Shown one piece after another: positions 3 to 33,388 of a DNA stretch of 64,000 nucleotides (the first letter of the stretch is position 1; the number at the start of each line of letters is the position of its first letter). The DNA is from a virus, in the IMG/VR virus record IMGVR_UViG_3300046332_000238, positions 1 to 64,000 of that record. One strand, given 5' to 3'. The notes beneath the pieces were generated by a model that was not told where the DNA came from, made no database searches, and was given only the letters and a program-made list of their open reading frames with translations. The position numbers and the translations under genes are program-made.

Positions 3-269
3 ATTAATCATGTAGATACAAATAGTTATTGCCTTAAAACATCGGTTGCGATACAATTAGCATCTGCATGGCATGGAGGTTGGGGACAAGATCGTGTTTT
101 CTTAGCAACCGTTTCTAAGTATTTTCCTAACTATGATTGCACAAAAAAATATAGCGTCAACTATCGAGTTGATGGAAATGCCGGATCAGTTACTGGTGAT
201 TTCTTCCTAAATGGCAATGAAGTGATGAACAAAAAATATAATGGAGTTTTCCCATGGAATACAATTTAA
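3..269 (+). CDS. C-terminal part of a putative glycosyltransferase-like protein (5' truncated by window edge)
   Basis: An open frame enters from the left edge and stops at TAA, overlapping the next gene by 16 nt. About 88 residues are visible. They include an aromatic, Gly-rich stretch WHGGWGQDRVF and a short C-terminal tail ending PWNTI. A small polar loop followed by D-R is reminiscent of the C-terminal part of GT-A fold transferases, and the neighbours are sugar-related, so a glycosyltransferase is plausible. That is inference from context; no catalytic motif is visible in this fragment. The overlap with the next gene indicates co-transcription with the following seven genes. Confidence 0.5.
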   Translation: MNHVDTNSYCLKTSVAIQLASAWHGGWGQDRVFLATVSKYFPNYDCTKKYSVNYRVDGNAGSVTGDFFLNGNEVMNKKYNGVFPWNTI

Positions 270-1123
270 TTATCGGTGCAGCAACCGGTTACAACTACAA
301 TCAACTCAAGCCTTGGGCAGAATCTATTGGTAAAGTTTGCGATGAATACACCGATAAGGTGTTGTTTGTCGGTAATATGTCAGAAGAAACTAGATCGAAA
401 CTTATCGAACAGAATTTTCTTCTAATTGAAATGCCTAATCTTCCAGGTGTGCCAGTTCATGTTGCACGTTTTCTTGCAATCTATGACTACCTAAGAGATT
501 CACACAGACAATACAAATATGTTGTTACCACTGATGTAAAGGATGTTTATTTTCAAACCAATCCATTTAATTGGATGGATAAGATAATGACACCAGGTTC
601 AATGTGTCGTTTGGTTGTTGGTTCTGAAAGTATGTTGTATAAAGATGAACCTTGGGGCAATGAGAATCTTTTGCAAACTTATGGTCCATATGTACATAAC
701 ATATTCAAAGAAAATAAGATTTATAACGTTGGAGTGATCGGTGGTCATTCTGAATATGTAAAAGACTTAGTGTTCAACATATTCAGCAATGCGACCAACA
801 GGCCTATTCCTATCGTTGACCAAGCGGTCTTTAATGTATTGATACAGACCAGACCATACAAAGATGTAATTTACTTTGCAGAACAATCAGATGGTTGGGC
901 TTGTCAGGCAGGTACGACAGTTGATCCATCAAAAATTGAACAATTCCGACCATTCTTAACTGAAGCAGAACCAAGTTTCAAAGAAGGTATTGTATGGACA
1001 AGTAAAGAAACACCATTCTGTATCGTACACCAATATGATCGTGTACCAGAATGGAAGAAATTCATACAAGAGAAATACGAACAAGACGATCCAAATAACT
1101 TTTTTACATATAGGACAGCATAA
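254..1123 (+). CDS. Putative glycosyltransferase (GT-A-like)
   Basis: This 289-residue soluble protein has no signal peptide. The N-terminal strand (YNLIIGAATGYNY) and a central acidic motif in VVTTDVKDVYFQ (about residues 95-106) look like the nucleotide-sugar-binding core and DxD-like metal site of a GT-A glycosyltransferase. A conserved-looking motif IYNVGVIGGH (about 155-165) and a later D-Q-A-V-F also fit that fold. The substrate is unknown. It sits in a tightly overlapping cluster with a methyltransferase and other sugar genes, suggesting modification of a glycan (virion, DNA base or host surface). The fold call is moderately safe; the exact function is not. Confidence 0.6.
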   Translation: MEYNLIIGAATGYNYNQLKPWAESIGKVCDEYTDKVLFVGNMSEETRSKLIEQNFLLIEMPNLPGVPVHVARFLAIYDYLRDSHRQYKYVVTTDVKDVYFQTNPFNWMDKIMTPGSMCRLVVGSESMLYKDEPWGNENLLQTYGPYVHNIFKENKIYNVGVIGGHSEYVKDLVFNIFSNATNRPIPIVDQAVFNVLIQTRPYKDVIYFAEQSDGWACQAGTTVDPSKIEQFRPFLTEAEPSFKEGIVWTSKETPFCIVHQYDRVPEWKKFIQEKYEQDDPNNFFTYRTA

Positions 1124-1692
1124 TGAGTGATGTGATTAAATTTAACACCGAAACACAGGCATTTGGTATCATACCAGGACAATTCAAATGTTCAGGTTAT
1201 GGTCTTGCAGAACTAATCAAAGACATTCCTAATTCAAGAGGAATTGAAATTGGATGTGATGTTGGTGACACCACAGAATTTCTATTGAAAACACATCAGA
1301 CTTTAATGCTTGATGGTGTTGATCCATACGAAAATTATGTCGATTGGAACGGTAACAACCTAAACGAACGACAAGTTGTTTATGATAATTTCATGCAACG
1401 AGTAAAACCATTCGGTACACGATTCAATTTGTTCCGTGAATATTCAGATGATGCTGCAAAAGAAATTGCAGATGAACATTACGACTTTATCTTTATTGAT
1501 GGTTTACATACTTACGAACAGTTGACCAAAGATTGTGCAAACTATTACTCTAAAGTGAAACCTGGTGGTATCTTTGCAGGACACGATTACAATGCCATTG
1601 AAGGTGTTCGTCGGGCTGCTGATGAATTTGCTGCAAGTGTCGGTAAAGAGATTCTTAAAACTGAATGTGACGTTTGGTACTGGGTAAAATGA
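1123..1692 (+). CDS. Class I SAM-dependent methyltransferase (Methyltransf_24-like)
   Basis: A 189-residue Rossmann methyltransferase. Motif I is visible as GIEIGCDVGDTTEFLL (about residues 39-54), the acidic residue of motif II follows in DGVDPYENY, and motif IV/V is DFIFIDGLHTYEQ (about 122-134), followed by KPGGIFAGHDY. This arrangement is typical of small-molecule or sugar O-methyltransferases of the Methyltransf_24/FkbM-like group. The start overlaps the previous stop (ATGA-type coupling), and the end overlaps the next gene. It probably methylates the glycan made by its neighbours, but the acceptor is unknown. Confidence 0.8.
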   Translation: MSDVIKFNTETQAFGIIPGQFKCSGYGLAELIKDIPNSRGIEIGCDVGDTTEFLLKTHQTLMLDGVDPYENYVDWNGNNLNERQVVYDNFMQRVKPFGTRFNLFREYSDDAAKEIADEHYDFIFIDGLHTYEQLTKDCANYYSKVKPGGIFAGHDYNAIEGVRRAADEFAASVGKEILKTECDVWYWVK

Positions 1693-2390
1693 AAAAGTGC
1701 ATAGTGTTGTCGGGTGAATATAGAACTTTCGATAAGACATGGCAAAACATCCAAAAATTCATTGAGTTGAATGATTTGGATGTTTATTGCCATGTGTGGG
1801 CAGATAAAAATTCAACCGAAAATAAAAGACAATTCCATGCGATTCGTGATAGGTTAAAACCGAAACAAATGTTGCAAGAACCAATGGAACCATATTGTGA
1901 CATCTTTGATGGCATCGACCAACACATTAGATTCAATAATCCAAAAGGTCCTAATCAAGACCGTCTTGCAGGTAATGCTTCGATGCATTATAGTAGAAAA
2001 AAGGCATTTGATTTAATCAAAGAAGAATATGATGTGTTGGTATATTGCAGATATGATATAGCAATTACCCCATTTGAGTTTCATGCAAATATTCCTGTAT
2101 TGTTGTCACCAACGGAACAGGCATATAATATCATCTCTGATATTTTTGCAATCATGCCGTTTGAATTTGCACCAGATTACTTTTTGTATGATAATTATGA
2201 ACAACTACATTCCACACCGTTTGAACCAGAGTTTGAGAACTGGTTGCGCGATGTGAAAAACTATGGTGAAGAAAATATCAGAATACATAAAGAAGATCGA
2301 TATTGTCCTCATATGATGTTATTAAATAACTTAGTCATGAATGATGTTCCTTACACACTATTAGATTTGCCTGTACAAATACAACGATGA
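1689..2390 (+). CDS. Putative glycosyltransferase-like protein (SGEYRTF family), paralogue of the next gene
   Basis: I start the gene at the ATG that overlaps the upstream TGA, giving MKKCIVLSGEYRTF and 233 residues; a longer reading would only add five residues inside the previous gene. The N-terminal hydrophobic strand followed by S-G-x-x-R-x-F is shared with the next gene (CFSGQARSF), as is a later basic-acidic motif (VYCRYDIAI here, WIIRSRPDYAL there). These features suggest a GT-A-like fold with a divergent D-x-D. The two genes look like an old tandem duplication. Function beyond sugar-transferase-like is not established. Confidence 0.55.
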   Translation: MKKCIVLSGEYRTFDKTWQNIQKFIELNDLDVYCHVWADKNSTENKRQFHAIRDRLKPKQMLQEPMEPYCDIFDGIDQHIRFNNPKGPNQDRLAGNASMHYSRKKAFDLIKEEYDVLVYCRYDIAITPFEFHANIPVLLSPTEQAYNIISDIFAIMPFEFAPDYFLYDNYEQLHSTPFEPEFENWLRDVKNYGEENIRIHKEDRYCPHMMLLNNLVMNDVPYTLLDLPVQIQR

Positions 2391-3061
2391 AAATTGCATT
2401 ATGTTTTTCTGGCCAAGCCAGATCATTTGAAAAAGGTTACGAATACTATAAACGTAACCTGTTGGATCATTATGATGTGGATGTGTATATTCATTCTTGG
2501 AAATTCCCAGAGAGTGAGAAGATGATTGAATTGTACAGACCTAGAGCCTGTCAATTTGAAACACCACTTGTCAATGATGCTAATGAGAAATACACCAATA
2601 CTCCAAACGCATCCAAATACCCTCCACAGTCTACATTCAATATGTTCTATTCGATGTTTGAATGTAGTCAGATGATTGGCAAGGAGTATGATTGGATCAT
2701 TCGTTCACGACCTGATTATGCACTGAATGTAAAGATTCCGTTTGAAGAACTAGATAACACCAAGTTATACATTCCTAATTGCAGAATGGTACCAGAAAGA
2801 GATTTTGGTAATGACCAATTTGCATTTAGTAGTTGGGAGAATATGTTATCGTATATGTCAACATATATTTTCTTAGATGATTATTATAATGAAGGAGCTC
2901 AGTTCATTGGTGAAGATTTAATGCAGGCAAATCTACGTCATAGAAATCTTTGTGGAGAAAATCTTGTTTATGTCAATATGAACAATCCATTCCCACCAGG
3001 TAAACATAATGGAACTTGGCATTCTCTGATTAGAGATGATTACGAACAATGGACAAAGTAG
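2387..3061 (+). CDS. Putative glycosyltransferase-like protein (SGQARSF family)
   Basis: This 224-residue protein begins MKIALCFSGQARSF and carries WIIRSRPDYAL near its middle (about residues 102-112), a pattern also seen in the preceding gene. R-x-D/R-S-R-P-D motifs of this kind occur in uncharacterised phage and cell-surface glycan proteins. The start overlaps the preceding stop by 4 nt. The gene ends in TAG immediately followed by TAA. No membrane segment is seen, so it is probably cytoplasmic. The sugar-transfer role is inferred mainly from fold-like features and neighbours. Confidence 0.5.
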   Translation: MKIALCFSGQARSFEKGYEYYKRNLLDHYDVDVYIHSWKFPESEKMIELYRPRACQFETPLVNDANEKYTNTPNASKYPPQSTFNMFYSMFECSQMIGKEYDWIIRSRPDYALNVKIPFEELDNTKLYIPNCRMVPERDFGNDQFAFSSWENMLSYMSTYIFLDDYYNEGAQFIGEDLMQANLRHRNLCGENLVYVNMNNPFPPGKHNGTWHSLIRDDYEQWTK

Positions 3062-3792
3062 TAAAGGAATTTAAAGGACATTCTGGAAGTAAAGTGTATC
3101 TCATGGAAGATATGGACACACTTTACGTTAAGAAGATTGGTAATATAGAACGGAACATAGAGAGGTTAAAAGACCTTCATGATAAAGGTTATCCTGTTCC
3201 TAAATTGTATTACTATGATGAAGATTATGTTTCTATGGAATACATCCATGGAATGGATATGAAGAACTACTTGATCCATAATAATATAAACCAATTAAGC
3301 CGGTTTATAATTAACACCTTAAGCAGTTTTGGTGTTTCTTCAACATCAAAATACTACACCGATATATATGACAGCAAGATTTCATGGATTGATGGAACAG
3401 AAGGTTTTCCATTCAAAAAAGAAGAATTAATAGCAAGATTACCAGAATATCTACCTCAATCCACATATCATGGTGATATGACACTAGAAAACATCATGTC
3501 TGGTAACAAACAATTCTACATGATTGATGCTGTATCGATTGAATATGATTCATACATATTTGATATAGCCAAGATGAGACAAGATTTGGAGTGTAAATGG
3601 TTTATCAGAAATGATGATGTCAAACTGGATGTCAAGTTAAAGAATCTTCAGGATAGAATACTAGAAAAGTTCCCATTAGCAAACAATGATTACCTTCTAA
3701 TACTGATGTTGTTGCGTGTCTATAAGCATACAGTAAAAGGTGATCCAGAACATGAATTTATAATGAAAGAGATTAAAAGATTATGGAAATAA
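3049..3792 (+). CDS. Aminoglycoside/choline-kinase-like phosphotransferase
   Basis: A 247-residue kinase-like protein of the APH/choline kinase superfamily. The Brenner motif is visible as HGDMTLENIM (about residues 145-154), with catalytic Asp and Asn. A second acidic segment YMIDAVSIEYDSYIFD supplies the metal-binding Asp. The N-terminal lobe has the expected Lys in LYVKKIG, and the hinge follows SMEYIHG. The family phosphorylates small alcohols or sugars with ATP. Directly upstream of a nucleotidyltransferase, it could make a sugar- or alditol-phosphate that the next enzyme activates. It overlaps both neighbours, so it is translationally coupled. Confidence 0.75.
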   Translation: MDKVVKEFKGHSGSKVYLMEDMDTLYVKKIGNIERNIERLKDLHDKGYPVPKLYYYDEDYVSMEYIHGMDMKNYLIHNNINQLSRFIINTLSSFGVSSTSKYYTDIYDSKISWIDGTEGFPFKKEELIARLPEYLPQSTYHGDMTLENIMSGNKQFYMIDAVSIEYDSYIFDIAKMRQDLECKWFIRNDDVKLDVKLKNLQDRILEKFPLANNDYLLILMLLRVYKHTVKGDPEHEFIMKEIKRLWK

Positions 3793-4811
3793 TTGTACCT
3801 GCAGCCGGATTGTCGACCAGATTTCCGGATATGAAACCAAAATATCTGCTGTATGATTACAAACATGAATTGATGTTAGCGAATGCCATTAAACCATATT
3901 TGTATCTGGGCATTAAAGTCAACATTGGTATTCTGAAAGAACATGATGAGAAATACAATGCGTCAGAATTCCTGAAACATGAATTTGGTCATGATATTAA
4001 TATTGTTGTCTTAGATCAACCAACCAAAGGTCCTGCTGATACTGTGTACCAGATTCTGATGAAAACTGGTTTACATACATCACCAATTCTCATTAAAGAT
4101 TGTGATAGTTTCTTCAATCATGATATTGATACAGGAAATTATGTTTGTGTTTCGAAAATATATCAACACGAAGTCTTGAAGAAATTATCTTCTAAAAGTT
4201 TTGTGGTTTCGAACGAACAAGATATCATTACCGATATTGTTGAGAAACGAGTTGTTTCGGATACATTCTGTGTTGGTGGTTACAAATTCTCCAGTGCAGC
4301 ACTATACAAAGAGACATATCAACAAATTTCACAACAGAATGAAATCTTTGTTTCGGATGTTATTGGTCGATGCATCAATTCAGGTTCAATCTTTACTGAA
4401 AAAGTTGTGACTGATTATACCGATGTTGGTACCGCACAAGATTGGTTTGAGTATAATGATAAGCCAGTAATCTTCTGTGATATTGATGGTACAATCATTG
4501 AGGCACAATCTCGTGTTGGTAAAAATGATTATTCGTCACCACCAGTTGTGTTAACCAAGAATGTTGAACGTCTTTTGGAATTATATAATAAAGGTGCTCA
4601 GATCATCTTTACAACTGCACGACAATCATACCATATAAAAGTCACCAGGAAGATACTGGACGATTTAGGATTCATTAATTGTAGTCTGATAATGGATTTG
4701 AAGAACGCTCGTAGGATCGTAATTAATGACTTTAATAATGCAAACCCATTCCCAAGAGCAGAAGCAATCAACATAGTTAGAAATTCGGATACATTATGCA
4801 ATTACCTATAA
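3783..4811 (+). CDS. Fusion: sugar-phosphate nucleotidyltransferase + HAD-type phosphatase
   Basis: Two domains are visible in 342 residues. The N-terminal part begins IIVPAAGLSTRFPDMKPKYL, matching the G-x-G-T/S-R-F...P-K signature of NTP-sugar nucleotidyltransferases, with the metal-binding D-x-D-like IKDCDSFF near residue 100. The C-terminal part starts VIFCDIDGTIIEAQSR (about 228-243), a HAD motif I (DxDGT), and continues with IIFTTARQ (motif II) and VINDF (motif IV-like). Such fusions couple activation of a sugar phosphate with a dephosphorylation step. It overlaps the kinase-like gene upstream by 10 nt, so kinase and activation steps are probably linked. Confidence 0.8.
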   Translation: MEIIVPAAGLSTRFPDMKPKYLLYDYKHELMLANAIKPYLYLGIKVNIGILKEHDEKYNASEFLKHEFGHDINIVVLDQPTKGPADTVYQILMKTGLHTSPILIKDCDSFFNHDIDTGNYVCVSKIYQHEVLKKLSSKSFVVSNEQDIITDIVEKRVVSDTFCVGGYKFSSAALYKETYQQISQQNEIFVSDVIGRCINSGSIFTEKVVTDYTDVGTAQDWFEYNDKPVIFCDIDGTIIEAQSRVGKNDYSSPPVVLTKNVERLLELYNKGAQIIFTTARQSYHIKVTRKILDDLGFINCSLIMDLKNARRIVINDFNNANPFPRAEAINIVRNSDTLCNYL

Positions 4812-5503
4812 TTCCAGATAAAAACCTGTTCATAGTAACTTCTGCTGTCAAACCAGTAATTGGTGTTTTTGACCATGATGAAAGGTTTGAACAAACAATC
4901 ACATCACTGAAATCTATACGAAATAAAGTTCCTGATGCGATCATATTGTTGGTTGATTGTTCGGTATCAACACTAACCCATGATGAGAAGAAGTTGCTGA
5001 CTGAAAACTCCAATATTTTTCTGAATTTGTCATCAGAACCAAATTGTGCCCATTTTTCAAAGACGGGCATGAAAAGTCATGCAGAAAATGCCATGTTGTT
5101 TTTCACATTACAGACATTGAAGAATAACAAAGATATCAGTAACCTATTAAACACAGTCAAAAGAATTTTCAAGTTTTCTGCAAGGTCTGAGTTGGATGAT
5201 ACCTTTGATATTACTGAATATGACAACCTTTTTGGTAAATTTGTATTCAAAGATCGCCTTCCAACATGGATGTCAAATGTTCAACATGGCGCAGACCACC
5301 TGTTTATTACCAGGATGTTTTCATTTTGTCCGTCTTTGATCGACACATATTTGCAGGTTATACAGAAAAATATGCAGGTTTTGGATACCTTGGATACCGA
5401 ACATGCACACTTTGTAAACATTCCCAAAGACAACCTGGTTGAATTTGTAATGATACATTGTCATGGATGGCTTGCGGGAAATGGCGAAATCGAATATTAT
5501 TGA
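4796..5503 (+). CDS. Conserved protein of unknown function, end of the sugar cluster
   Basis: A 235-residue protein with an N-terminal alternation of hydrophobic strands (AIILLVDCSVSTLT, residues about 48-61) that resembles a Rossmann or GT-A-like nucleotide-binding half. There is a later RSELDDTFDI segment with acidic residues and a conserved-looking HCHGWLAGN near the C-terminus. I do not recognise a named family. It overlaps the upstream fusion gene by 16 nt and is the last gene before a 120-nt gap that carries a late promoter, so it belongs to the upstream cluster. A glycosyltransferase is possible but unproven. Confidence 0.5.
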   Translation: MQLPIIPDKNLFIVTSAVKPVIGVFDHDERFEQTITSLKSIRNKVPDAIILLVDCSVSTLTHDEKKLLTENSNIFLNLSSEPNCAHFSKTGMKSHAENAMLFFTLQTLKNNKDISNLLNTVKRIFKFSARSELDDTFDITEYDNLFGKFVFKDRLPTWMSNVQHGADHLFITRMFSFCPSLIDTYLQVIQKNMQVLDTLDTEHAHFVNIPKDNLVEFVMIHCHGWLAGNGEIEYY

Positions 5504-5569: not shown

Positions 5570-5577
5570 TATAAATA
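5570..5577 (+). promoter_or_regulatory. T4-type late promoter, TATAAATA
   Basis: An exact copy of the T4 late -10 box TATAAATA, 48 nt upstream of the first gene of the internal-protein block and in the only sizeable gap nearby. T4 late promoters need only this box (recognised by a gp55-type sigma factor) and no -35. The downstream leader has AAAGGT as ribosome binding site. The gap also contains TTGCCA and TATAAT-like pieces, but not at promoter spacing. Confidence 0.7.
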
Positions 5578-5624: not shown

Positions 5625-6842
5625 ATGAAATCATTTATCTCCTTCTTAAAAGAAGAAACTGAAGAATCTAGTCAGCTGAAACATATTCATCACGCTGAAG
5701 ATCGTCCACTAATGCATGGCCATGCGGGTTTCGAACACGCATTTGGTGCTCTACATCAGGCTCATGCACATATTAAGGCTGGTCACCAGAGCAGCAATCT
5801 AACGATGAAATATGATGGTTCTCCATCAATTGTCTTTGGTCACCACCCCAAAACTGGTAAATTCTTTGTTGCAACGAAGTCAGCATTCAACAAGAATCCA
5901 AAGATCAATCACACCGAAGCGGATATTGACAAGAACCACGGTCATGCACCAGGTCTTGCACATACACTAAAACATGCTCTGAAACATCTACCTAAAGTAA
6001 CACCAAAAACTGGTGTTTACCAAGGTGACCTGATGCACCATGCAGATACCAAGACCTTACATGAAGGTTATATGGTTGAAGCGAAATCAAGTAAGGTTTC
6101 GTTTACTCCAAACACCATCACTTATACTGCTCACGGTCCAGAAGCAGAAAAGATCAAGAAATCTAAAGTTGGTGTGGTTGTTCATCAACAATATCACGGT
6201 TCGGATATTGACAAGATGCACGCTTCTGCTCATCCTGATATGAGCAAGTTCAAAGAACATCCAGACGTTCACTTACATGGTGCAGAACATGATACCAGTA
6301 AAGTTAAACACAGTGAACAAAATGAAAAGACCTTCCAGAAGCACATGACTGCTGCCAAAGAGATTCATGACACACATGGTCATAAAATGTATGATGCGGT
6401 TCATCCAAAACACTCAGGTGAGACTGGCCATCTATCGACATACATTAACCATACTGTAAGACACGATGAAGTTCCTAGTGTTGAAGGATTTAAGAAACAT
6501 CTGAAATCTCAACATGATAAGATGGCATCTAAAGTCAAAACAGAAAAATCAAAAGCAGAAAAGACTAAACAAGGCGAATCTGAACTTGCACACGTTGAGA
6601 AACATAAAGCACACTATGGTAATCTTTTTGCAATGCATCATCACCTACATCAGGCAAAAAATGCATTGGTCAATTCTTTAGAGACACATGAAGGTAGATA
6701 TCAACACCACATTGAAGGTAAGAAATCAAAGCCAGAAGGTTTTGTAGTTAATCACAAACCAGAAGGTGGAAAAGAAGAACCTACTAAGTTGGTCAATCGT
6801 GCTGAATTTGCAAAACAGAATCTATTAAAAGTTAGAAAATGA
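5625..6842 (+). CDS. DUF6267-like protein with nucleotidyltransferase/ligase motifs and capsid-targeting-like N-terminus
   Basis: A 405-residue, very His- and Lys-rich protein. The sequence shows KYDG at residues 62-65, the K-x-D-G signature where ATP/RNA/DNA ligases and capping enzymes are adenylated. A GVYQGDLM strand follows at about 130, then EGFVV at 371-375 (like motif IV, E-G-x-V/F-V) and TKLVN at 387-391, where motif V lysine would lie. This order matches the covalent nucleotidyltransferase superfamily. It starts MKSFISFLKEE, a peptide shared with four other proteins in this block. The downstream gene overlaps it (ATGA). Substrate (RNA, DNA or protein) is unknown; the ligase-like call is inference from motif order. 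Confidence 0.65.
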   Translation: MKSFISFLKEETEESSQLKHIHHAEDRPLMHGHAGFEHAFGALHQAHAHIKAGHQSSNLTMKYDGSPSIVFGHHPKTGKFFVATKSAFNKNPKINHTEADIDKNHGHAPGLAHTLKHALKHLPKVTPKTGVYQGDLMHHADTKTLHEGYMVEAKSSKVSFTPNTITYTAHGPEAEKIKKSKVGVVVHQQYHGSDIDKMHASAHPDMSKFKEHPDVHLHGAEHDTSKVKHSEQNEKTFQKHMTAAKEIHDTHGHKMYDAVHPKHSGETGHLSTYINHTVRHDEVPSVEGFKKHLKSQHDKMASKVKTEKSKAEKTKQGESELAHVEKHKAHYGNLFAMHHHLHQAKNALVNSLETHEGRYQHHIEGKKSKPEGFVVNHKPEGGKEEPTKLVNRAEFAKQNLLKVRK

Positions 6843-7465
6843 TATCCTTTAAGGACTTTTTAGTTGAAGAACAGAAACCAAAAACACTTCATGCATTTGA
6901 CATGGATGAGGTGTTGTTTCACCACGACAATTCAAAAGTAAAGGTTCATGTAAAAGACAAAGAAGGTAAGCACGTTAAATCATTGACGAATCAAGAATTC
7001 AATTCACACAAATTAGAGCCAGGTCATAAGTATGACTTTAGTGAGTTTCGTTCTTCTAAGGTGTTCAAGAAATCTGCACATCCTATTCACAAAATGATTA
7101 ACAAATTAAAGGCGATACATAAGAATAAACAAGATGTTAATATCGTAACTGCTCGTGCAGATATGGATAATAAACATCATTTTAAAGATACACTACATAA
7201 ACATGGTATTGATGCTGATAAAGTTCATGTTCGCCGTGCTGGTAACTTGAATGCTCCTAGTCCAGGAGAAGCAAAACATAAAGTAATTAGTGATTTGATT
7301 AAAAAACATGGTTACAAAAAGGTTCACTTGTATGATGATTCTAAGGATAACTTGCATCACTTCTTAAAATTAAAGCATGAACATCCGAATGTTGAATTAC
7401 ATGCTCATCACATTGAACACAATCCAGATACTGGCCACGTTAAAACTACAACTACCGTCAAATGA
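6839..7465 (+). CDS. HAD-superfamily phosphatase with capsid-targeting-like N-terminus
   Basis: A 208-residue HAD hydrolase. Motif I is FDMDEV with nucleophile D21 and D23, motif II is NIVTAR with T104, a Lys for motif III lies around 147, and motif IV is LYDDSKDN with D166 and D167. The compact layout resembles polynucleotide 3'-phosphatase or nucleotidase domains (the T4 Pnkp C-terminal domain belongs to the same superfamily). Its first 11 residues, MISFKDFLVEE, copy the leader of the neighbouring genes. It is coupled by 4-nt overlaps to a ligase-like gene upstream and a kinase-containing gene downstream, suggesting joint action on nucleic-acid ends or nucleotides. The substrate is inferred, not shown. 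Confidence 0.75.
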   Translation: MISFKDFLVEEQKPKTLHAFDMDEVLFHHDNSKVKVHVKDKEGKHVKSLTNQEFNSHKLEPGHKYDFSEFRSSKVFKKSAHPIHKMINKLKAIHKNKQDVNIVTARADMDNKHHFKDTLHKHGIDADKVHVRRAGNLNAPSPGEAKHKVISDLIKKHGYKKVHLYDDSKDNLHHFLKLKHEHPNVELHAHHIEHNPDTGHVKTTTTVK

Positions 7466-9270
7466 AATCGTTTTTAGAATTAGTAGAAGAAACAAAAGCA
7501 CCAGAGCATCACCATGTGATGACTTTTGGTCGAATGAATCCGCCTACAACCGGTCATCTTAAATTAATTGACAAAGTAAAAGAGATTGCAAAGAAGCACA
7601 ATGCAACTCATACTGTTGTCACATCACATTCACAAGATGCTAAAAAGAATCCATTATCTGCTGAACAGAAGGTTAAACACCTGAAACGTTATTCGCCAGG
7701 TACAAACTTCCAAGCGTCTACCAAAGAACATCCAACATTCTTGCATCATGCCGCAGAACTACACAAGAAAGGTGTAACTCACCTTCATATGGTAGTTGGT
7801 TCTGATCGTGTAAAAGAAATGAAGGAGAAGTTACACAAGTATAATGGTACACACGAAGGTGCATTGTATAATTTCAAGAAAGTTACTGTACATTCTGCTG
7901 GCGAACGTGATCCTGATGCAGAAGGTACTGAAGGTATGTCCGGCACTAAGATGCGTGAACATGCTAAGAACAAAGATGTGAAATCTTTTAAACAAGGTGT
8001 TCCATCTCATGTTTCAGACACACACGCAAAAGAATTGATGCATGATACCCGTACAGGTATGGGACTGCACGAATCTGCATATCACGGTATCTTCAAAGCA
8101 ATTTTTGTTACTGGTGGACCTGGTTCAGGTAAAGATGTTGTTATCCGTGAAGCGATTGCAGAACAACGTGCTGTTGAATTGAATTCAGTACAAGCATTTG
8201 AATACTTGGCAGATAAACAGAAGTTATCAGAAAAGACTAGTGATTATCGTAGAGAAGCAATTCGTAACCGTACACCATTAATCATCAATGGTCCTGCAAA
8301 CGATAATGAACGCATCTTGTACATCAAAGAAGAATTAGAAGAACTTGGTTACTCCACACTGATGGTTTTTGTGGACACCAATGAACAAGCAAGTAAAGAG
8401 AGAAATGAAAAACTGACTAAAATGGTTTCTGAGTCGGTTCGCCATGATAAATGGTTGCAATCACAAAGAAACAAAACAACTTTCTCCAAGAAGTTTGAAG
8501 ATTTCATCTATTTTGACAACAGTGCGTCATTCGTCGATGACGAGATAATGACGGAAACATACCAACAAGTTAATGCGTTCATTGATGGAAAATCATACAA
8601 TGATGTAGCATTCTCATGGTTGGAGAACCAAGGTAAACTGAATATCAACGGTTCAATTAAATCTCTCTATAAGGAAAACAAAAATGTTAACAAAACTAGT
8701 AACCAAGATTCTAAGTCTATTCAAAAAACCAGAGGTGTTACCATCACCGCCGGTAGAAGTCCAAAAGCAGACGGTCCAGACGATTTCACCCCAGACAATC
8801 AAGCAACCGACCCCAACGCAGACAACATCAAGTGGGACGCCAACAAAAAAAGAGGCGGTTACACCTTCAAAACCTACACCGAAGCCAAAGGGTCAGCCAA
8901 AGAACCCACCATCAAAGTCTATCCCGAACCCAAAGAAACCAAGTTCAGCAAAGACAAAGAAAAAATAAAGAATTCGAAATGGTTAAATAGTCCATCAGGT
9001 GCCATTAAAGCTCCAGGAATTGGACCAGAATATGACACCCGCACCCAAGGAACAGTATATCCTATGTCAGGTATGGGTGATGTGACGTACCGAGAAGAAA
9101 CAAACTTCAAGTCTTTCAGAAACAGAATTAAAGAAGCCATCGATGATCCAGGTGCAAACGACATGGGTGTTGGTGGTGTCTTAAATGGTGCTTCGAATAA
9201 AGAACCTTTAGTTACACCACAAGATGTTAAAAATGGTGGATTACTAATAAAGAAAAAAAAGAATCGTTAA
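7462..9270 (+). CDS. Bifunctional protein: cytidylyltransferase-like domain + P-loop kinase, capsid-targeting-like N-terminus
   Basis: The 602-residue protein starts MKSFLELVEE. Domain 1 (about residues 15-200) has GRMNPPTTGH at 23-32, the HxGH/T-x-G-H nucleotide-binding signature of the cytidylyl/NMN-adenylyltransferase superfamily, and GMSGTKMRE at 158-166, equivalent to the I-S-S-T-x-x-R motif. Domain 2 begins at the Walker A GGPGSGKD (218-225) and continues with segments typical of small P-loop kinases. The last 200 residues are low-complexity and polar (many K, P, T), ending in a Lys-rich tail. This pairing recalls NadR (NMN adenylyltransferase plus ribosyl-nicotinamide kinase), but a nucleic-acid kinase is equally possible given the neighbours. 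Confidence 0.75.
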   Translation: MKSFLELVEETKAPEHHHVMTFGRMNPPTTGHLKLIDKVKEIAKKHNATHTVVTSHSQDAKKNPLSAEQKVKHLKRYSPGTNFQASTKEHPTFLHHAAELHKKGVTHLHMVVGSDRVKEMKEKLHKYNGTHEGALYNFKKVTVHSAGERDPDAEGTEGMSGTKMREHAKNKDVKSFKQGVPSHVSDTHAKELMHDTRTGMGLHESAYHGIFKAIFVTGGPGSGKDVVIREAIAEQRAVELNSVQAFEYLADKQKLSEKTSDYRREAIRNRTPLIINGPANDNERILYIKEELEELGYSTLMVFVDTNEQASKERNEKLTKMVSESVRHDKWLQSQRNKTTFSKKFEDFIYFDNSASFVDDEIMTETYQQVNAFIDGKSYNDVAFSWLENQGKLNINGSIKSLYKENKNVNKTSNQDSKSIQKTRGVTITAGRSPKADGPDDFTPDNQATDPNADNIKWDANKKRGGYTFKTYTEAKGSAKEPTIKVYPEPKETKFSKDKEKIKNSKWLNSPSGAIKAPGIGPEYDTRTQGTVYPMSGMGDVTYREETNFKSFRNRIKEAIDDPGANDMGVGGVLNGASNKEPLVTPQDVKNGGLLIKKKKNR

Positions 9271-9283
9271 TACGGAGAAAACT

Positions 9284-11191
9284 ATGATTAATAAAAAGGT
9301 TGCAGCAGTCGCTGATGCTGTTAGAGATATTTTACAACAAGAAGCAAAAGAATTATCAGCAAAGCAGAAGAAAATTGCTGCTCTTGCTGGTGATAAAGAT
9401 AAGATCGATGCAGAAGATTTTAAAAAACTTCGTGGTGAAGAACTTGAAATTACCATGACTGCTGAAGAATTTGAACAATTGGATGAATTGTCTAAAAAAA
9501 CTTTAGGTGCTTATATAAAGAAAGCTTCTGTTAATAATATGGCTCAAGGTATTAAATTTGGTTCACACGCAGAAAAAGGTGAAACAGATGATGCCATTAA
9601 GGTTGGTAATAAGTTTAGTAAACGTAGTGGTAACATCGGTAAAGCTACTGATAGATTAACCAAAGAAGAAGATAGTACACAATCAGCAATGTCTATGTTT
9701 TCTAGAATCATGGAAAAAGTTGCTGAACGTGAACTAGATGAAGCATTCCCTACTGTTGCTGATGCTCGAAAAAAAGCAAATGCGCCACAACCAAGTGGTG
9801 GTGCAGGTATCAAACAAGGTACACGTTACGGTGGTGGTCGTCAAGCACCTGATGTAGAACCAGAAGATGATGACGAAAAGAAACCATTTACTCGTATGAG
9901 TGGTGCTCACAAGAATCGCAGAACAGATACCAAACTGTATAAAGAAGAAGAAGTTGACGAAGCTGCTGGTAAGCTAGCCGAGGAAGGTGTAGTAAAAGAT
10001 ATCAAGCGTTTGGTTACTGGTAAAGATGCAAAAAGTCGTGCTGGCCAAGAAATTGCTAAATCACAAGATGCTAATATGAAAGGCGACTACAAAACCTCTA
10101 AGAAGCATTTTGACCGTTTTGATAAATTAGATAAATTAACACAAAAAGAAGAATTTGAATCTGTCGATGAAGCTAAAGATGAATATGACAAAATGTTTGA
10201 TAAACTTATGAAAAAATCTGGTGACAGATTGACGAAAAAGTATTCAAATGATGTTAAAAAAACAAAAGATAACAATAGCGGTAAATCATTGGATAAACAC
10301 ATCAAGAAAAATCCAAATGTAATCAAAACCTATTCAAATGATGTTCAAAGAACAAAAAAAATGTATGGTGAAGAAGTTGATGAATCTGCATTCGATCCAT
10401 TAAAACACGTTAAGAATCCTACTCCAGGTGAAAAGACTGCTGCGAAAGATGTTAAACGTGGAAGTTATGCTGATCGTGCTGCAATGTTAAAATCAGCAGA
10501 AGCTGGTGGACGTTTGAAGGAAGATGGAAATCCACCATGGGACGGTCCTTCTACCAAAACCAAAGGTGATGTGAAAGACAAGTCTGGTGCTGTTCATACT
10601 GCTGCTTCTCGTGCAAAAGATTCTGCACAAAAAGGTATGAAAACTTTTGCTCAAAAGAGAAAAGAATTGGAAGAATCTTTATCAAAAAAAGCACCGCCAG
10701 CAGACTGGATTCATGATTTTGTCCATAGTGACAATCCAAAGTTTGCTGGCAAATCAACAAAAGAACGTCAGAAAATGGCTTTAGCAGCATACTATGCAAA
10801 GCAACGCAATGAAGAAGTTGATATGGATGAAGCATTTGATACTACCAATCCACAATCTTATAGTGTAACTGTACACCATAAAACAAAAGATGGTGAAACT
10901 GGTAAAGCAGAATACAAAATCAACAAAGCAAATTCTGGTACACATGCTAAACATATTGCAATGCAACGTCATGAAAAGGCTTTATCTGCATCTGGAATTA
11001 AAGTTAGTTCAATGCACACAGATTCACAAAATGTTAAACCATTGGGTGAAGGTCGCGGACCAACAAGTCAAGTTGATGAACCATTTGTGACTGATGATTC
11101 TAAACCATTGCAAAATGCAAAAGATTTGGCCAAATCAACAATGAAACGCATCAAGACTGAAATGATGGGTAAAACCGGAACTTCTGAATAA
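9284..11191 (+). CDS. Large polar internal/head polyprotein-like protein with repeated EEVDEA linkers
   Basis: A 635-residue, Lys/Asp/Glu-rich protein with no membrane segment. It is built from short modules separated by acidic linkers: ERELDEAF, EEEVDEAAG, FESVDEAKDE, EEVDESAF, LEESL and EEVDMDEAF. One module (SKKAPPADWIHDFVHS) and another (LDELSKKTLGAYIKKAS) resemble stand-alone segments I recall from cyanophage-type T4-like proteins. The linkers contain L/V-x-E, the type of site cut by T4 gp21-like prohead proteases. I infer a scaffold or internal head precursor that is cleaved into peptides. Two near-copies of a Y-S-N-D-V-x-x-T-K segment occur at about 320 and 350. RBS ACGGAGAAAACT precedes the ATG. 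Confidence 0.55.
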   Translation: MINKKVAAVADAVRDILQQEAKELSAKQKKIAALAGDKDKIDAEDFKKLRGEELEITMTAEEFEQLDELSKKTLGAYIKKASVNNMAQGIKFGSHAEKGETDDAIKVGNKFSKRSGNIGKATDRLTKEEDSTQSAMSMFSRIMEKVAERELDEAFPTVADARKKANAPQPSGGAGIKQGTRYGGGRQAPDVEPEDDDEKKPFTRMSGAHKNRRTDTKLYKEEEVDEAAGKLAEEGVVKDIKRLVTGKDAKSRAGQEIAKSQDANMKGDYKTSKKHFDRFDKLDKLTQKEEFESVDEAKDEYDKMFDKLMKKSGDRLTKKYSNDVKKTKDNNSGKSLDKHIKKNPNVIKTYSNDVQRTKKMYGEEVDESAFDPLKHVKNPTPGEKTAAKDVKRGSYADRAAMLKSAEAGGRLKEDGNPPWDGPSTKTKGDVKDKSGAVHTAASRAKDSAQKGMKTFAQKRKELEESLSKKAPPADWIHDFVHSDNPKFAGKSTKERQKMALAAYYAKQRNEEVDMDEAFDTTNPQSYSVTVHHKTKDGETGKAEYKINKANSGTHAKHIAMQRHEKALSASGIKVSSMHTDSQNVKPLGEGRGPTSQVDEPFVTDDSKPLQNAKDLAKSTMKRIKTEMMGKTGTSE

Positions 11192-11199
11192 GGCACAAA

Positions 11200-12519
11200 A
11201 TGAGCAATAAAGCAAAAATATTAAAAGATATTGTCAAAGGTGTGCCTGCAAAGGTCACTTTTGGCACCGACCCGAAAGATCCTTGGTCGACTAAAGCAAA
11301 TATTGCTGAAGATGCTGCTTTGAACAAGTTTCTTATGTCAAGAGGTATTAATCCTGAGTTTGTTAGCAAAGATACTAAGGTGTCACATTCTAAATCGGGT
11401 GAATTCCTAAAGTGGAAACAAGACCATATGTTGGAATCAATGCATGTGTTGGATAAGAAGGATACAATTACCTTTGATATTCCATTGTTGATTCGCGTGT
11501 TGGAATTGACAAGAGAACATATCAAGACTGATATCAATCTACATAAGATGGTGGAGAAGTTAATTAATCTGCGTAAACGCGGTGTATTGACTATGGATGA
11601 TTACAAATATATTACTCAAATTCGTGAATCATTTGAAATTGAGGAAGATTGTTCATGCAATATCAAAACCCAAAAAGACTGGGAGAAGTTTGCTCAGATG
11701 GCAGCAGAGAAGTGGAGACTGAAACAACTGAAAAAGATTGATGAAGTATCTACACCCAGAGAAAAGTTCAATGCTGGGTTAAAGAAGTCTGGTTACGATC
11801 CTCATGCTGGTGCAAAACGACTTACTGATTTATTGGCAAAACAGAAAGCAGAACGTGAAGCACACGAAAAGAAGTATGCTCATTTGTATGCTAATGAAGA
11901 TGTTTATCAGGACCCAAAAGCTGCAACTCAAACAGTTTTTGACGGTGCAAATAATACTGATGACACTTCAATGAAATCAGAAAGATCAAAGTCTGCTCGT
12001 ATCATTAAATCAATATACAAGAACAAAGGTGTAACTGAAAATATTGATGTTGTTTTGGATGAATCGATTACCACAAAGAAAATTGCCAATGGCCAGCACG
12101 CTGTATATTGGAAAGATGCACCAACGCAGTATGAAATTTATAATGCAGATTCTGGTTCCAGTGGACATGGTGGAAATATGTATGGTATTCACAACAAAGA
12201 TACTCAAAAACATCAGCTTGTTGGAAGTTTGCAAAAAGCAAAAAAGATGTTACATCTAACAATGTCACAAAAAGAAAAAACCAAAGTTACTGAAGAAATC
12301 TACGATCATGAGAAAGAAGATAAATCGGTTGCAACTTATGGTAAGAAACCTAATGTGAAAGTGAATGACTCAAAAGGCCAAGGTGATAATCCAGATAAAG
12401 CTGCGATTATTGTTAAAGGCGGTAAAACATTAACAGGACAAGGTAGAGATACTTTAGAGATTGACCCTGAAATGAAGCGTCCTAGTAAACCAGGCGCACC
12501 AAAAGACGAAAATAAGTAA
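11200..12519 (+). CDS. Putative virion-associated/internal protein of unknown function
   Basis: A 439-residue soluble, charged protein starting MSNKAKILKDIVKG. A helical central part (about residues 85-150) contains a Cys pair in EEDCSCNIKT. The C-terminal third is polar with a compact segment HAVYWKDAPTQYEIYNADSG (about 302-321) that might be a small beta domain. The end is a disordered P/K-rich tail. It follows the polyprotein-like gene after 9 nt and precedes a late-promoter-like element, so it is probably expressed late and may sit in the head. I do not recognise a named family. Confidence 0.5.
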   Translation: MSNKAKILKDIVKGVPAKVTFGTDPKDPWSTKANIAEDAALNKFLMSRGINPEFVSKDTKVSHSKSGEFLKWKQDHMLESMHVLDKKDTITFDIPLLIRVLELTREHIKTDINLHKMVEKLINLRKRGVLTMDDYKYITQIRESFEIEEDCSCNIKTQKDWEKFAQMAAEKWRLKQLKKIDEVSTPREKFNAGLKKSGYDPHAGAKRLTDLLAKQKAEREAHEKKYAHLYANEDVYQDPKAATQTVFDGANNTDDTSMKSERSKSARIIKSIYKNKGVTENIDVVLDESITTKKIANGQHAVYWKDAPTQYEIYNADSGSSGHGGNMYGIHNKDTQKHQLVGSLQKAKKMLHLTMSQKEKTKVTEEIYDHEKEDKSVATYGKKPNVKVNDSKGQGDNPDKAAIIVKGGKTLTGQGRDTLEIDPEMKRPSKPGAPKDENK

Positions 12520-12521
12520 CA

Positions 12522-12529
12522 GATAAATA
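12522..12529 (+). promoter_or_regulatory. Near-consensus late promoter, GATAAATA
   Basis: One mismatch to TATAAATA, lying 35 nt upstream of the Ig-domain structural gene, with a strong AAAGGAGA ribosome binding site downstream. The gene is closed by a clear terminator, so an own promoter here makes sense. Confidence 0.45.
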
Positions 12530-12563
12530 GAACTATAACCCTCGGTTAAAAGGAGAAATAAAA

Positions 12564-13214
12564 ATGTCATCTTGGGGCAATAACGATAATGCAGCGAACA
12601 CACCATTGTGGGCTGCGATGCAAGTAAAAAGAAAACCAGATAGTACAAATACCACTTTATTATTCGCTAATACCACTGCTGATGCTTTCATCACTGGTGA
12701 AACAATTGGCGTATTTGGTGTTGATGCACAAGAATCCGCAGTAAATCATGGTGCTCACACTGGTTGGGTATTAAGAACTGTTGGTTCTGGTGGTCGTGCT
12801 GGTCGCGTACAAGAAGAAGTTCTTGTTGCAATGAACACAATGAATACTGATGGTGATGGTCAAACATACGCAAACGTGTCTATCACATTTGGTGGACCAT
12901 CAAATCAAACAGTTCGCGCTAATACTGCAAATGCTAATACTGCCGTATTCAACTCATCAGTTACATTAAAAGGTAACACTGCTGCAACATTGACATATCA
13001 ATGGCAAGTAGATACTGCAACAGGTTCATTAGGTTGGACTAACGTCGCAAATGCTACACCGTCGAATACAACATACACTGGCGGTACTTCTGCTGCATTG
13101 ACTGTATATCCATATGCTGTTGATGCAAATACCTATGTGTATCGTGTAGTTGTTACTGCTGCTGATGAAGGTGTAACTGCAACTTCTGCAAACGCAACAT
13201 TAACTGTACTTTAA
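12564..13214 (+). CDS. Ig-like-domain virion structural protein
   Basis: The 216-residue protein has two parts. The N-terminal half (about 1-110) starts MSSWGNNDNAANTPLWA and is small and Ala/Thr/Asn-rich, like surface proteins seen in T4-like phages of marine and fresh waters. The C-terminal half (about 115-216) is an Ig/Big-like beta domain: LTYQWQVD, WTNVANATPSNTTYTGG and YVYRVVVTAADEGVTAT match the strand pattern Y-x-W-Q... and Y-R-V-V-V. Ig-like modules decorate many phage capsids and tails and may bind host-surface sugars. The gene has a very good RBS, its own late-type promoter and an intrinsic terminator, suggesting a high copy number. Confidence 0.65.
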   Translation: MSSWGNNDNAANTPLWAAMQVKRKPDSTNTTLLFANTTADAFITGETIGVFGVDAQESAVNHGAHTGWVLRTVGSGGRAGRVQEEVLVAMNTMNTDGDGQTYANVSITFGGPSNQTVRANTANANTAVFNSSVTLKGNTAATLTYQWQVDTATGSLGWTNVANATPSNTTYTGGTSAALTVYPYAVDANTYVYRVVVTAADEGVTATSANATLTVL

Positions 13215-13227
13215 AGTAACCAATTAG

Positions 13228-13258
13228 TGGGAGTGGACGCAAGTCCCTCCCATTTTTT
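13228..13258 (+). terminator. Rho-independent terminator
   Basis: Stem TGGGAG-T-GGAC, loop GCAA, stem GTCC-CTCCCA, then six T. Ten base pairs with one bulged T and a GNRA-type tetraloop. It closes the structural gene unit just upstream. Confidence 0.9.
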
Positions 13259-13271
13259 ATAAGCATAAACT

Positions 13272-13658
13272 ATGTTTGATGATTTGAATGAAGAAAACTT
13301 TACAATGTATGCAGTTAAATGCTATACTTCACCTCACTGTATTATGTCAGAATTTGAAGGTGATATAAAGAGAACAAAGTATTTAAAAAGATTGTTTCGT
13401 AGATACAAGACTTCAAAATCTTTAAAAGAACGACTAATCATCAACCATATCATCTTATTGAATAATGTTTTTGGTACAGAAGTTACTGCAAGAATACTAT
13501 TCTATAAGATAGATGAACGTGACTATGATATACTAAAAACCTTTTTGGGTTATTTGAATATCATGCCAGATTTTGTTTATGGCATCCGTGGTAAGAATAT
13601 AATTTCATCTGAAATTCCCATCGATTTACATATCGCAGAGATATTGAGCAAAATATGA
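13272..13658 (+). CDS. Conserved T4-like phage protein of unknown function
   Basis: A 128-residue, largely helical protein. The N-terminal pattern YAVKCYTSPHCIMSEFEGD followed by KYLKRLFRRYK is one I associate with small conserved proteins of T4-like marine phages. Basic helices around residues 35-60 could contact nucleic acid. The next gene overlaps its stop by 4 nt. No enzyme motif is visible. Confidence 0.55.
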   Translation: MFDDLNEENFTMYAVKCYTSPHCIMSEFEGDIKRTKYLKRLFRRYKTSKSLKERLIINHIILLNNVFGTEVTARILFYKIDERDYDILKTFLGYLNIMPDFVYGIRGKNIISSEIPIDLHIAEILSKI

Positions 13659-14491
13659 AAACATTCAAAGAGTTTTTCGCCGAAAATAAATCAGGAGATT
13701 CTTCTCTACATGATTGGTTCACCAAAAGCAAATCTTCCGATGGAAAACCTGGATGGGTACAATTAGGTGGCAAATATGCAGGCAAGTCTTGTGCAAAACA
13801 ACCAGGTCAAACAACAAAGCCAAAGTGTGGAAGTTCCAAAATGGCATCATCTATGAGTGACAAAGAAGAAAATGCTGCAGCAAGAAGAAAACGAGAACAA
13901 GATCCAAATGCAGACAGAAAAGGTAAAGCAATAAATGTTGCTACTGAGGAAACTGTATTTGAAGATGCTTGTACAACAAAAGTGAAGTCTCGATACTCTG
14001 TCTGGCCAAGTGCATATGCATCTGGAGCTTTGGTTCGTTGCCGTAAAGTTGGTGCAAAAAATTGGGGTAATAAAACAAAAAAAGAGGAAATGCAATTGCT
14101 TACTTTTAAATCATTTGTGGCCGAACATTGCTGGCCTGGTTATAAATCTGTTGGTATGAAAGAAAAGAACGGCAAACAAGTTCCAAATTGCGTACCCGAA
14201 GAAACTCAAATAGAAGAAGTTGCTGCATGGCAACGTAAAGAAGGCAAACGAGAATCTGGTGGATTGAATCAGAAAGGTGTTGATTCTTATCGTAGAGAAC
14301 ATCCAGGTTCAGAATTGAAAACTGCGGTCACAACAAAACCTTCAAAATTAAATCCAGATTCAAAATCAGCAAAACGACGTAAGAGTTTCTGTGCAAGAAT
14401 GTCTGGCATGAAAAAGCGATTAACCTCTGCAAAAACTGCAAATGATCCAGATTCAAGAATCAACAAGTCATTGAGAAAGTGGAATTGTTAA
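13655..14491 (+). CDS. Modular internal-protein-like fusion with two capsid-targeting-like peptides (DUF5872-like C-terminus)
   Basis: The 278-residue protein begins MKTFKEFFAEN, very close to the T4 internal-protein leader. A second copy, TFKSFVAE, appears inside at residues 150-157, right after an internal Met (MQLLTFKSF). Modules in order: a Trp/Lys/Cys module (SLHDWFTKSKSSDGKPGW), a Cys-containing basic module (about 105-140), a CWPGYKSVGMKEKNGKQVPN module (159-178), and a C-terminal module with GGLNQKGVDSYRREHPGSE and ARMSGMKKR, similar to DUF5872. I have seen such modules as stand-alone small phage proteins, so this looks like a chain of former independent genes, perhaps cut after ...AE by a prohead protease. 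It may bind DNA (very basic). Confidence 0.6.
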   Translation: MKTFKEFFAENKSGDSSLHDWFTKSKSSDGKPGWVQLGGKYAGKSCAKQPGQTTKPKCGSSKMASSMSDKEENAAARRKREQDPNADRKGKAINVATEETVFEDACTTKVKSRYSVWPSAYASGALVRCRKVGAKNWGNKTKKEEMQLLTFKSFVAEHCWPGYKSVGMKEKNGKQVPNCVPEETQIEEVAAWQRKEGKRESGGLNQKGVDSYRREHPGSELKTAVTTKPSKLNPDSKSAKRRKSFCARMSGMKKRLTSAKTANDPDSRINKSLRKWNC

Positions 14492-14685
14492 TGAAAACAT
14501 TTAAGCAATATGTAAAAGAAGATGGCATGGGTGGAGGTGCTGTTGCAGCTGCACCTACTAATGTCGTAGGTGGTGGTTCTATTGCGGGCAGTGGTGGTAA
14601 AGGTGGTGAACCTGGTGTCAATTTAAAGAAGAAAAAGACACCAGTAATGATGCCTGTCGTGTCACGCAAATCACCAAAGATGTAA
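14491..14685 (+). CDS. Small Gly/Ala-rich protein with capsid-targeting-like N-terminus
   Basis: A 64-residue protein starting MKTFKQYVKED, then a Gly/Ala-rich segment (PTNVVGGGSIAGSGG) and a basic tail (NLKKKKTPVMM...). I start at the ATG overlapping the upstream TAA. If the leader is removed after Y-V-K-E, a 55-residue flexible basic peptide remains, as in T4 internal peptides. No fold can be assigned. Confidence 0.6.
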   Translation: MKTFKQYVKEDGMGGGAVAAAPTNVVGGGSIAGSGGKGGEPGVNLKKKKTPVMMPVVSRKSPKM

Positions 14686-32586: not shown

Positions 32587-32614
32587 TTGCCAATAGTGGC
32601 ACCACCTGTAAAAT
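32587..32614 (+). promoter_or_regulatory. Early-type promoter: TTGCCA-16-TAAAAT
   Basis: Followed by the conserved leader GGTTGTATTGAAT and AAAAGGAAATAAA; drives three tiny membrane genes. Confidence 0.7.
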
Positions 32615-32644
32615 GGTTGTATTGAATAAAGAAAAGGAAATAAA

Positions 32645-32737
32645 ATGATAGAATTATTGGTCGTGATAGCATTATCGGTCGTTATTCTAATAGTAAAAGC
32701 ATCCTTTCTGGATTATCTTGATAGTATAAGGAAGTAA
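32645..32737 (+). CDS. 30-residue single-membrane-span peptide
   Basis: ATG after AAAGGAAATAAA: MIELLVVIALSVVILIVKAS then a short polar tail. A typical small transmembrane peptide, in a tandem of three. Confidence 0.5.
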   Translation: MIELLVVIALSVVILIVKASFLDYLDSIRK

Positions 32738-32738
32738 T

Positions 32739-32822
32739 ATGGAAAAGGCATTGGTATTAATGGTGGGTATTCTGGCAGTGGTGGCATTAATGGTTGATAT
32801 TATTATAATGGTCAAATTATGA
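32739..32822 (+). CDS. 27-residue single-membrane-span peptide
   Basis: Starts 1 nt after the previous stop, with AAGGAAG in front: MEKALVLMVGILAVVALMVD..., almost entirely a hydrophobic helix. Confidence 0.45.
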   Translation: MEKALVLMVGILAVVALMVDIIIMVKL

Positions 32823-32896
32823 AACTGGTTGTTTATAGTGGTCTAGTATGCCTGCTTAATCTGGCGCTGTTATTATACGTTGGAATGCAGCATTAA
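32819..32896 (+). CDS. 25-residue single-membrane-span peptide
   Basis: ATGA overlap with the previous gene: MKLVVYSGLVCLLNLALLLY.... Third of the row. No family can be assigned to peptides this short. Confidence 0.4.
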   Translation: MKLVVYSGLVCLLNLALLLYVGMQH

Positions 32897-32942
32897 TGAT
32901 TCCTGGATGGAGAGCAAAGCGATCAAAACCGTCACGGAGTGC

Positions 32943-32970
32943 TTGCCAATTGCAGCGGTGCCTGTAAAAT
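32943..32970 (+). promoter_or_regulatory. Early-type promoter: TTGCCA-16-TAAAAT
   Basis: Same family with GGTTGTATTGATTCG leader, but no convincing gene starts in the next 220 nt, so it may drive an RNA. Confidence 0.65.
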
Positions 32971-32976
32971 GGTTGT

Positions 32977-33075
32977 ATTGATTCGAAAGGCAAGACCTGG
33001 GGTGGACGTAGGGAGCGACCATATGGGAGACTCCGACTATCGCCCGCAGTAAATTGATAGTCACAATGTGCTTGC
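32977..33075 (+). ncRNA. Candidate small RNA downstream of an orphan promoter
   Basis: After the promoter comes a GC-richer segment with no ORF of more than nine codons. It contains a perfect 7-bp stem GACTATC/GATAGTC (33035-33041 and 33056-33062, 14-nt loop) and GGAG/CTCC pairs. A short structured RNA is possible; ends are unknown. This gene-free stretch runs to the next promoter. Confidence 0.25.
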
Positions 33076-33137
33076 CAAGTATTCCTGGACGGAGAGCAAA
33101 CCGTATAAACTCAGCGAAAAACAATGGTTACCGGCGC

Positions 33138-33165
33138 TTGCCAATATCCTGTAGACCTGTAAAAT
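33138..33165 (+). promoter_or_regulatory. Early-type promoter: TTGCCA-16-TAAAAT
   Basis: Followed by GGTTGTATTGAATCGATAA and an ACAGGAGA ribosome binding site for the next small gene. Confidence 0.75.
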
Positions 33166-33196
33166 GGTTGTATTGAATCGATAAACAGGAGACACC

Positions 33197-33364: not shown

Positions 33365-33388
33365 CAATAGTATCAGACACTGTATAAT
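33361..33388 (+). promoter_or_regulatory. Early-type promoter: TTGACA-16-TATAAT
   Basis: Perfect -35 and -10. It starts inside the stop codon of the upstream gene, showing how tightly cassettes are packed. Confidence 0.8.

Follow-up and report, generated by a model that had tools for sequence, protein, structure and literature searches.

Five proteins encoded in one cassette of an uncultured T4-like aquatic phage share an N-terminal leader that is likely a capsid-targeting sequence of the T4 internal protein (IP) type, here placed on a multi-enzyme cargo in which at least three of the proteins are probable enzymes. Support for this reading comes from a residue rule based on T4 genetics, from the recovery of T4 internal proteins by a matrix built on the leaders, from the separability of the leader and from published virion proteomes of homologues.

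A shared leader in a five-gene cassette

The analysed window is the first 64,000 nucleotides of the IMG/VR record IMGVR_UViG_3300046332_000238, a virus fragment of 104,719 bases in full. No match to the record was found in the phage records searched at the DNA level. At the protein level it is related to T4-like phages infecting Synechococcus, Prochlorococcus, Pelagibacter and Methylophilales, and close relatives are also present among other IMG/VR contigs. The cassette (5625-14685) contains five tightly spaced leader genes, all on one strand (Table 1). The block upstream of it (254-5503) includes what looks like a sugar-nucleotidyltransferase gene (Pfam NTP_transferase at 3783) and, judged by eye only, glycosyltransferase and methyltransferase genes; none of its genes has a leader. 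Elsewhere, about 3.4 kb (window 32600-36050) lack any ORF of at least 90 aa, and three ORFs resemble GIY-YIG homing endonucleases by eye (window 54082-54741; record 67229-67837 and 90698-91447).

Table 1. Features of the leader cassette, in window coordinates.
Feature	Position	Strand	Protein start or motif	Description
T4-type late promoter	5570..5577	+	TATAAATA	47 nt before the first ATG of the cassette
Gene 1	5625..6842	+	MKSFISFLKEE	Leader and DUF6267; 405 aa; probable ligase-type nucleotidyltransferase
Gene 1 leader	5625-5654		MKSFISFLKE	
Gene 1 motif	5808-5825		KYDG	
Gene 1 motif	6732-6749		EGFV	
Gene 1 motif	6786-6800		KLV	
Gene 2	6839..7465	+	MISFKDFLVEE	Leader MISFKDFLVE and HAD-type phosphatase; 208 aa; motifs FDMDEVLF, TAR, DDS
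Gene 3	7462..9270	+	MKSFLELVEE	Leader, cytidylyl/adenylyltransferase, P-loop kinase and disordered tail; 602 aa
Leader-like segment	9103-9138		NFKSFRNRIKEA	Inside gene 3
Head protein	12564..13214	+		phrog_613; no leader; within the cassette
Gene 4	13655..14491	+	MKTFKEFFAEN	Leader MKTFKEFFAE and DUF6321 protein; 278 aa
Internal leader copy	14102-14125		TFKSFVAE	Residues 150-157 of the DUF6321 protein
Gene 5	14491..14685	+	MKTFKQYVKED	Leader MKTFKQYVKE and small basic-tailed protein; 64 aa; phrog_3286

In T4 IPIII the first 10 residues are enough for packaging; residues 4 and 7 mainly direct targeting, while residues 8 and 10 govern processing (PMC9026906). The T4 gp21 protease cuts after L/I-x-E. 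A rule, M..[FY]..[FYLMW][ILVMFA].E (aromatic 4, bulky 7, hydrophobic 8, Glu 10), was written from the IPIII genetics summarised in that review and not from the window sequences; the looseness at positions 7 and 8 was the analyst's choice. Across the 659 ORFs of the whole record it matched the starts of four long ORFs and the ATG at 14491, which was counted apart since its ORF was listed from an upstream GTG. All five matches lie in the cassette and are thus confined to 8.7% of the record. The match rate in internal windows was 5.2e-4, which corresponds to about 0.3 chance matches over all ORFs. Both the targeting residues and the processing residues are present at the extreme N-terminus of all five proteins, with V or F rather than L/I at position 8 in leaders 3-5.

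The earlier note, made without database searches, had reported the five leaders and the internal copy in the fourth protein, and all of these held. The third leader aligns without a gap, with F4, L7, V8 and E10; a gapped alignment was dropped in light of the T4 genetics. The note had also placed T4 Alt among the proteins with an IP-type leader, and this part failed. Alt begins with MELITELFDE, and none of the five window leaders resembles this MELITEL-type, 7-residue propeptide. Because its propeptide is different and shorter, Alt falls outside the IP leader class, although, like the enzymes inferred to be packaged here, it is carried in the head.

A weight matrix built from the window's five leaders alone ranked T4 IPIII, IPII and IPI 3rd, 4th and 5th of 409 ORFs. 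The rule matched 3/409 T4 ORFs, namely IPII, IPIII and gp61.1. The last of these (L176:18966-19130), a neighbour of primase gene 61, carries a perfect leader, MKTFKEFIKEDMVAGDSGGN, and may therefore be an unrecognised packaged T4 protein. The small protein of gene 5 was considered as a gp61.1 homologue, but PHROG profiles give no support for this.

The claim of a late promoter ahead of the cassette held, though occurrences of TATAAATA in the window are at chance level (5 seen vs 5.4 expected). The evidence for it is positional: TATAAAT[ACG] is kept 51-56 nt upstream of the DUF6267 gene in 71/85 relatives, compared with 2% of random windows. The gp21-type protease (PF03420) is absent from the 104.7-kb record, itself a fragment, and was found in all 11 related records tested, T4 included, among them contigs whose DUF6267 is 80-81% identical. 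The missing part of the genome is inferred to hold the head module.

The five proteins share with T4 IPI, IPII and IPIII a ten-residue N-terminal leader with key residues 4, 7, 8 and 10, unrelated mature bodies, a T4-type late promoter and, in relatives of the window phage, a gp21 protease. They differ in that the window cargo is larger and enzymatic, with several enzymes per cassette, and hosts and phage family are not the same.

The leader as a separable module

In gene 1 the Pfam DUF6267 match (E 1e-97) begins at residue 19, and in the AlphaFold model (pLDDT 85) residues 1-19 score below 50, placing the leader outside the fold. Relatives yielded 89 DUF6267 homologues, 71 of them distinct in sequence. 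In these the leader positions are conserved at 0.99 (F4), 0.97 (F7), 0.97 (L8) and 1.00 (E10), and a variable linker separates them from the conserved domain.

The same body also occurs without a leader. Cyanophage-type DUF6267 proteins begin directly with the domain (MAKNTHLEHLED) in 80/80 cases and none carries the leader, while the adjoining cytidylyltransferase has it in 71/71 (loose pattern). Melnitz-type DUF6267 proteins mostly possess it, just ahead of the first conserved residues. Since one and the same DUF6267 body is found with and without it, the leader is separable from the enzyme fold.

A scan of 4,866 ORFs from 160 related loci and the window found 233 N-termini scoring at least 12 bits, compared with no internal window and one reversed N-terminus. 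These leaders are spread over 13 families with unrelated bodies. The leader-bearing family of the DUF6321 protein has 114 members in relatives, and the HAD homologue in locus L102 has a leader too. Given how short the motif is and that the genes are adjacent, the shared starts could be put down to chance or to the recent duplication of a single gene start. This explanation is all but excluded by the near-empty nulls, by the unrelated bodies and by the variation among leaders that nevertheless keep positions 4, 7, 8 and 10.

An unbiased scan of IMG/VR loci used a DNA pattern fixing residues 1-8 only (MKTFK[EQ]F[hydrophobic]). It returned 84 open frames no shorter than 30 aa; the unfixed position 10 was Glu in 66 of them, with positions 9 and 11 mixed. 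Pfam names among these frames include SAM lyase (17), DUF6321 (3), cytidylyltransferase (2), one ART-PolyVal and one ADP-ribosyltransferase exoenzyme. In the related locus L085 (2819-3520), the leader MKTFKTFIVES is found on an ADP-ribosyltransferase (E 4e-12), the activity class of Alt, about 7 kb upstream of DUF6267. A row of four leader genes (MKTFKQFI..) with differing bodies lies on one strand at L371:6505-9422.

Leader-bearing proteins in cyanophage virions

Published proteomes place leader-bearing homologues in virions. The 52 virion proteins listed for S-CREM2 (PMC10665884) include a SAM lyase (gp6, MKDFDSFLEE), a kinase (gp14, MKRFDAFLTE) and a cytidylyltransferase (gp154, MKNFSSFLTE), all with the leader, as well as the leader-bearing unknowns gp13 and gp136 and two endolysins without it. 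With the window matrix, the five top-scoring of 219 N-termini were all virion-detected (background 52/219), and so were the rule matches (4/4, hypergeometric p=0.003). The virion list was known before these calculations; the rule and matrix were derived elsewhere, the matrix used for S-CREM2 and S-SZBM1 being the one built with the gapped third leader.

Similar detections are available for other cyanophages: the T4-GC190 cytidylyltransferase of S-SM1 (MKKFSAFLNE; PMC3037559), the NMNAT of S-SCSM1 (MKSFLQFLKE; PMC9602691), the cytidylyltransferase of S-SZBM1 (MRFRQFIIEA, one residue shorter; PMC9146016) and the kinase of S-CRM01 (MISFDQFLSE; detection as cited in PMC10665884). The checked non-lytic virion enzymes of T4-like cyanophages, which are a SAM lyase, kinases and four homologues of window gene 3 (in S-SM1, S-SCSM1, S-CREM2 and S-SZBM1), carry the leader also found in the window. 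In S-SM1, S-SCSM1 and S-SZBM1 the cytidylyltransferase is of the same family as in the window and occupies the same genomic place, between helicase and primase. These studies report detection; no link to a targeting leader is made in the texts searched.

The matrix test failed on S-SZBM1. Its top leader proteins, gp191 and gp192 (105 and 165 aa, strong leaders), are not among the 30 virion proteins detected (PMC9146016), and the cytidylyltransferase that was detected has the shorter leader. The leaderless DUF6267 of this phage (gp141) is also missing from the 30. For the window's DUF6267 and HAD proteins there is no direct proteomic support, and their packaging is inferred.

In the matching cassette of S-SCSM1, between helicase/mazG and primase, genes 89-93, 95 and 97 are annotated as virion proteins. 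Several share families with window genes and most have no N-terminal leader. S-SCSM1_95 is the counterpart of the phrog_613 head protein, and S-SCSM1_97 matches the head protein family phrog_696 (E 5e-12), with only a weak match to phrog_3286 (E 0.009). As many packaged cyanophage proteins are leaderless, the leader is not the sole way into the virion.

Two virion-annotated proteins contain leader-like segments away from the start. S-SCSM1_93 (L471:36626-36835, 69 aa) has RTFKEFLEYIE at its C-terminus. S-CREM2 gp12 (L009:7704-10313), annotated as a CRISPR Cas9, has no Pfam match at E 0.01 and contains RFASFMAE at residues 18-25. A mis-called start was rejected for gp12, as the codon before this segment is CTG, not a usual start.

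Alternatively, the leader may serve as a docking helix for a different partner, such as tail, membrane or replisome, with virion detection reflecting the carry-over of proteins that are abundant in the cytoplasm. The S-CREM2 authors concede possible contamination by abundant proteins, and the two undetected S-SZBM1 proteins also fit this view. Against it, T4 capsid targeting depends on the same four residues, scoring derived from the window recovers the T4 internal proteins, detected enzymes bear the leader much more often than the background rate, and the S-CREM2 list contains none of the usual replication enzymes (polymerase, helicase, clamp). The docking-helix explanation is thus very unlikely.

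Cargo and its possible roles

Under the preferred capsid-targeting reading, the cassette (5.6-14.7 kb) would be expressed late in infection and the leader, through aromatic residue 4 and bulky residue 7, would dock each protein onto the prohead core. A gp21-type protease would then cut after Glu10 (hydrophobic-x-Glu), for which there are no mature N-terminus data, and the mature proteins would remain in the head and enter the cell with the DNA. The predicted cargo comprises the DUF6267 nucleotidyltransferase, the HAD phosphatase, the cytidylyl/adenylyltransferase-P-loop kinase, the DUF6321 protein and the small basic protein. The earlier note had inferred packaging and co-injection of the five proteins; capsid targeting is supported, while packaging in this uncultured phage, cleavage, injection and early function remain inferred. 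It had allowed that conservation of the leader as an integral part of unpackaged enzyme folds would refute the idea, and the leaderless cyanophage DUF6267 shows that this is not so.

DUF6267 is likely a divergent ligase-type nucleotidyltransferase. Residues K62, D64, G65, E371, G372, K388, L389 and V390 are invariant, and the motifs KxDG, EGxV and KLV are invariant or nearly so. A fold search placed DNA ligases at the top and RNA repair ligases further down, none of them significant (best E 0.1). No relative of DUF6267, the HAD protein or the nucleotidyltransferase-kinase fusion turned up in PDB sequence searches. The gene 2 product matches phrog_415, polynucleotide kinase (E 5e-10). The gene 3 product matches Pfam CTP_transf_like (E 1.5e-7) and phrog_3041, with ATP sulfurylase, adenylate kinase and polynucleotide kinase among its fold matches and a long low-confidence tail (residues 395-548, pLDDT below 50). 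One profile, PHROG 455, unites DUF6267-like and cytidylyltransferase-like segments. A leaderless 635-aa cassette protein (window 9284-11191) contains eight hydrophobic-x-Glu sites, and at most of these the next residue is Ala, Ser or Glu (LDEA, VDEA, VDES, MDEA); judging from sequence alone, it could be a scaffold-type protein that a gp21-like protease cleaves at many sites.

The leader could also target the prohead core while the cargo serves head assembly or DNA condensation and is not delivered as working enzymes. T4 IPIII does have a role in head morphogenesis (PMC9026906), a phrog_613 head protein lies within the cassette, and the DUF6321 and small proteins appear non-enzymatic. This explanation is nevertheless unlikely: DUF6267 and the nucleotidyltransferase/kinase both have invariant catalytic motifs, and among the cargo of relatives are SAM lyase and ADP-ribosyltransferases, enzymes directed at host defence or host proteins.

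A bolder reading of the delivered-enzyme model, which can only be put forward as a possibility, is that the phage carries a nucleic-acid end-repair kit in its virion (a ligase-type nucleotidyltransferase, a HAD 3'-phosphatase and a P-loop 5'-kinase with nucleotidyltransferase) and that the leader is a general plug-in of T4-like aquatic phages. Such a kit is possible but unproven, given the ligase-like motifs, the polynucleotide kinase PHROG match and the kinase and nucleotidyltransferase folds. The set resembles the ligase, 3'-phosphatase and 5'-kinase of T4 Pnkp (pseT)/RNA ligases and of the Pnkp/Rnl/Hen1 complex; in contrast to these, the window domains are carried by separate proteins and have no known substrate, and sequence and fold tie them only weakly to the known enzymes. 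For the nucleotidyltransferase, a role in NAD or nucleotide metabolism is just as good a candidate.

The note's description of such an arsenal as unusual held only partly and needs qualifying, because the combination of leader and enzyme is common among T4-like phages of marine and fresh waters. The idea that T4-like phages may use the capsid-targeting sequence to load a variety of proteins has been put forward before (PMC9026906). In the literature searched, apparently no capsid-targeting-sequence paper concerns cyanophages or marine phages, judging by titles and abstracts, and DUF6267 is not mentioned. Within that literature, the link between the leader and the virion-borne enzymes of these phages appears new, as does its on/off behaviour on one enzyme; the signal itself is that of T4.

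The leader offers one mechanism for the presence of metabolic-looking enzymes (NMNAT/cytidylyltransferase, SAM lyase, kinases) in purified cyanophage particles. For abundant aquatic viruses, the sequence rule could predict injected proteins straight from metagenomic genomes, and a quick scan with a strict form of it already yields a SAM lyase-rich cargo plus some ADP-ribosyltransferases. If the bolder reading is true, the kit would act before any phage gene expression, for example by undoing host tRNA or DNA cleavage. On this reading, the leader would let phages shift enzymes between those made after infection and those carried in.
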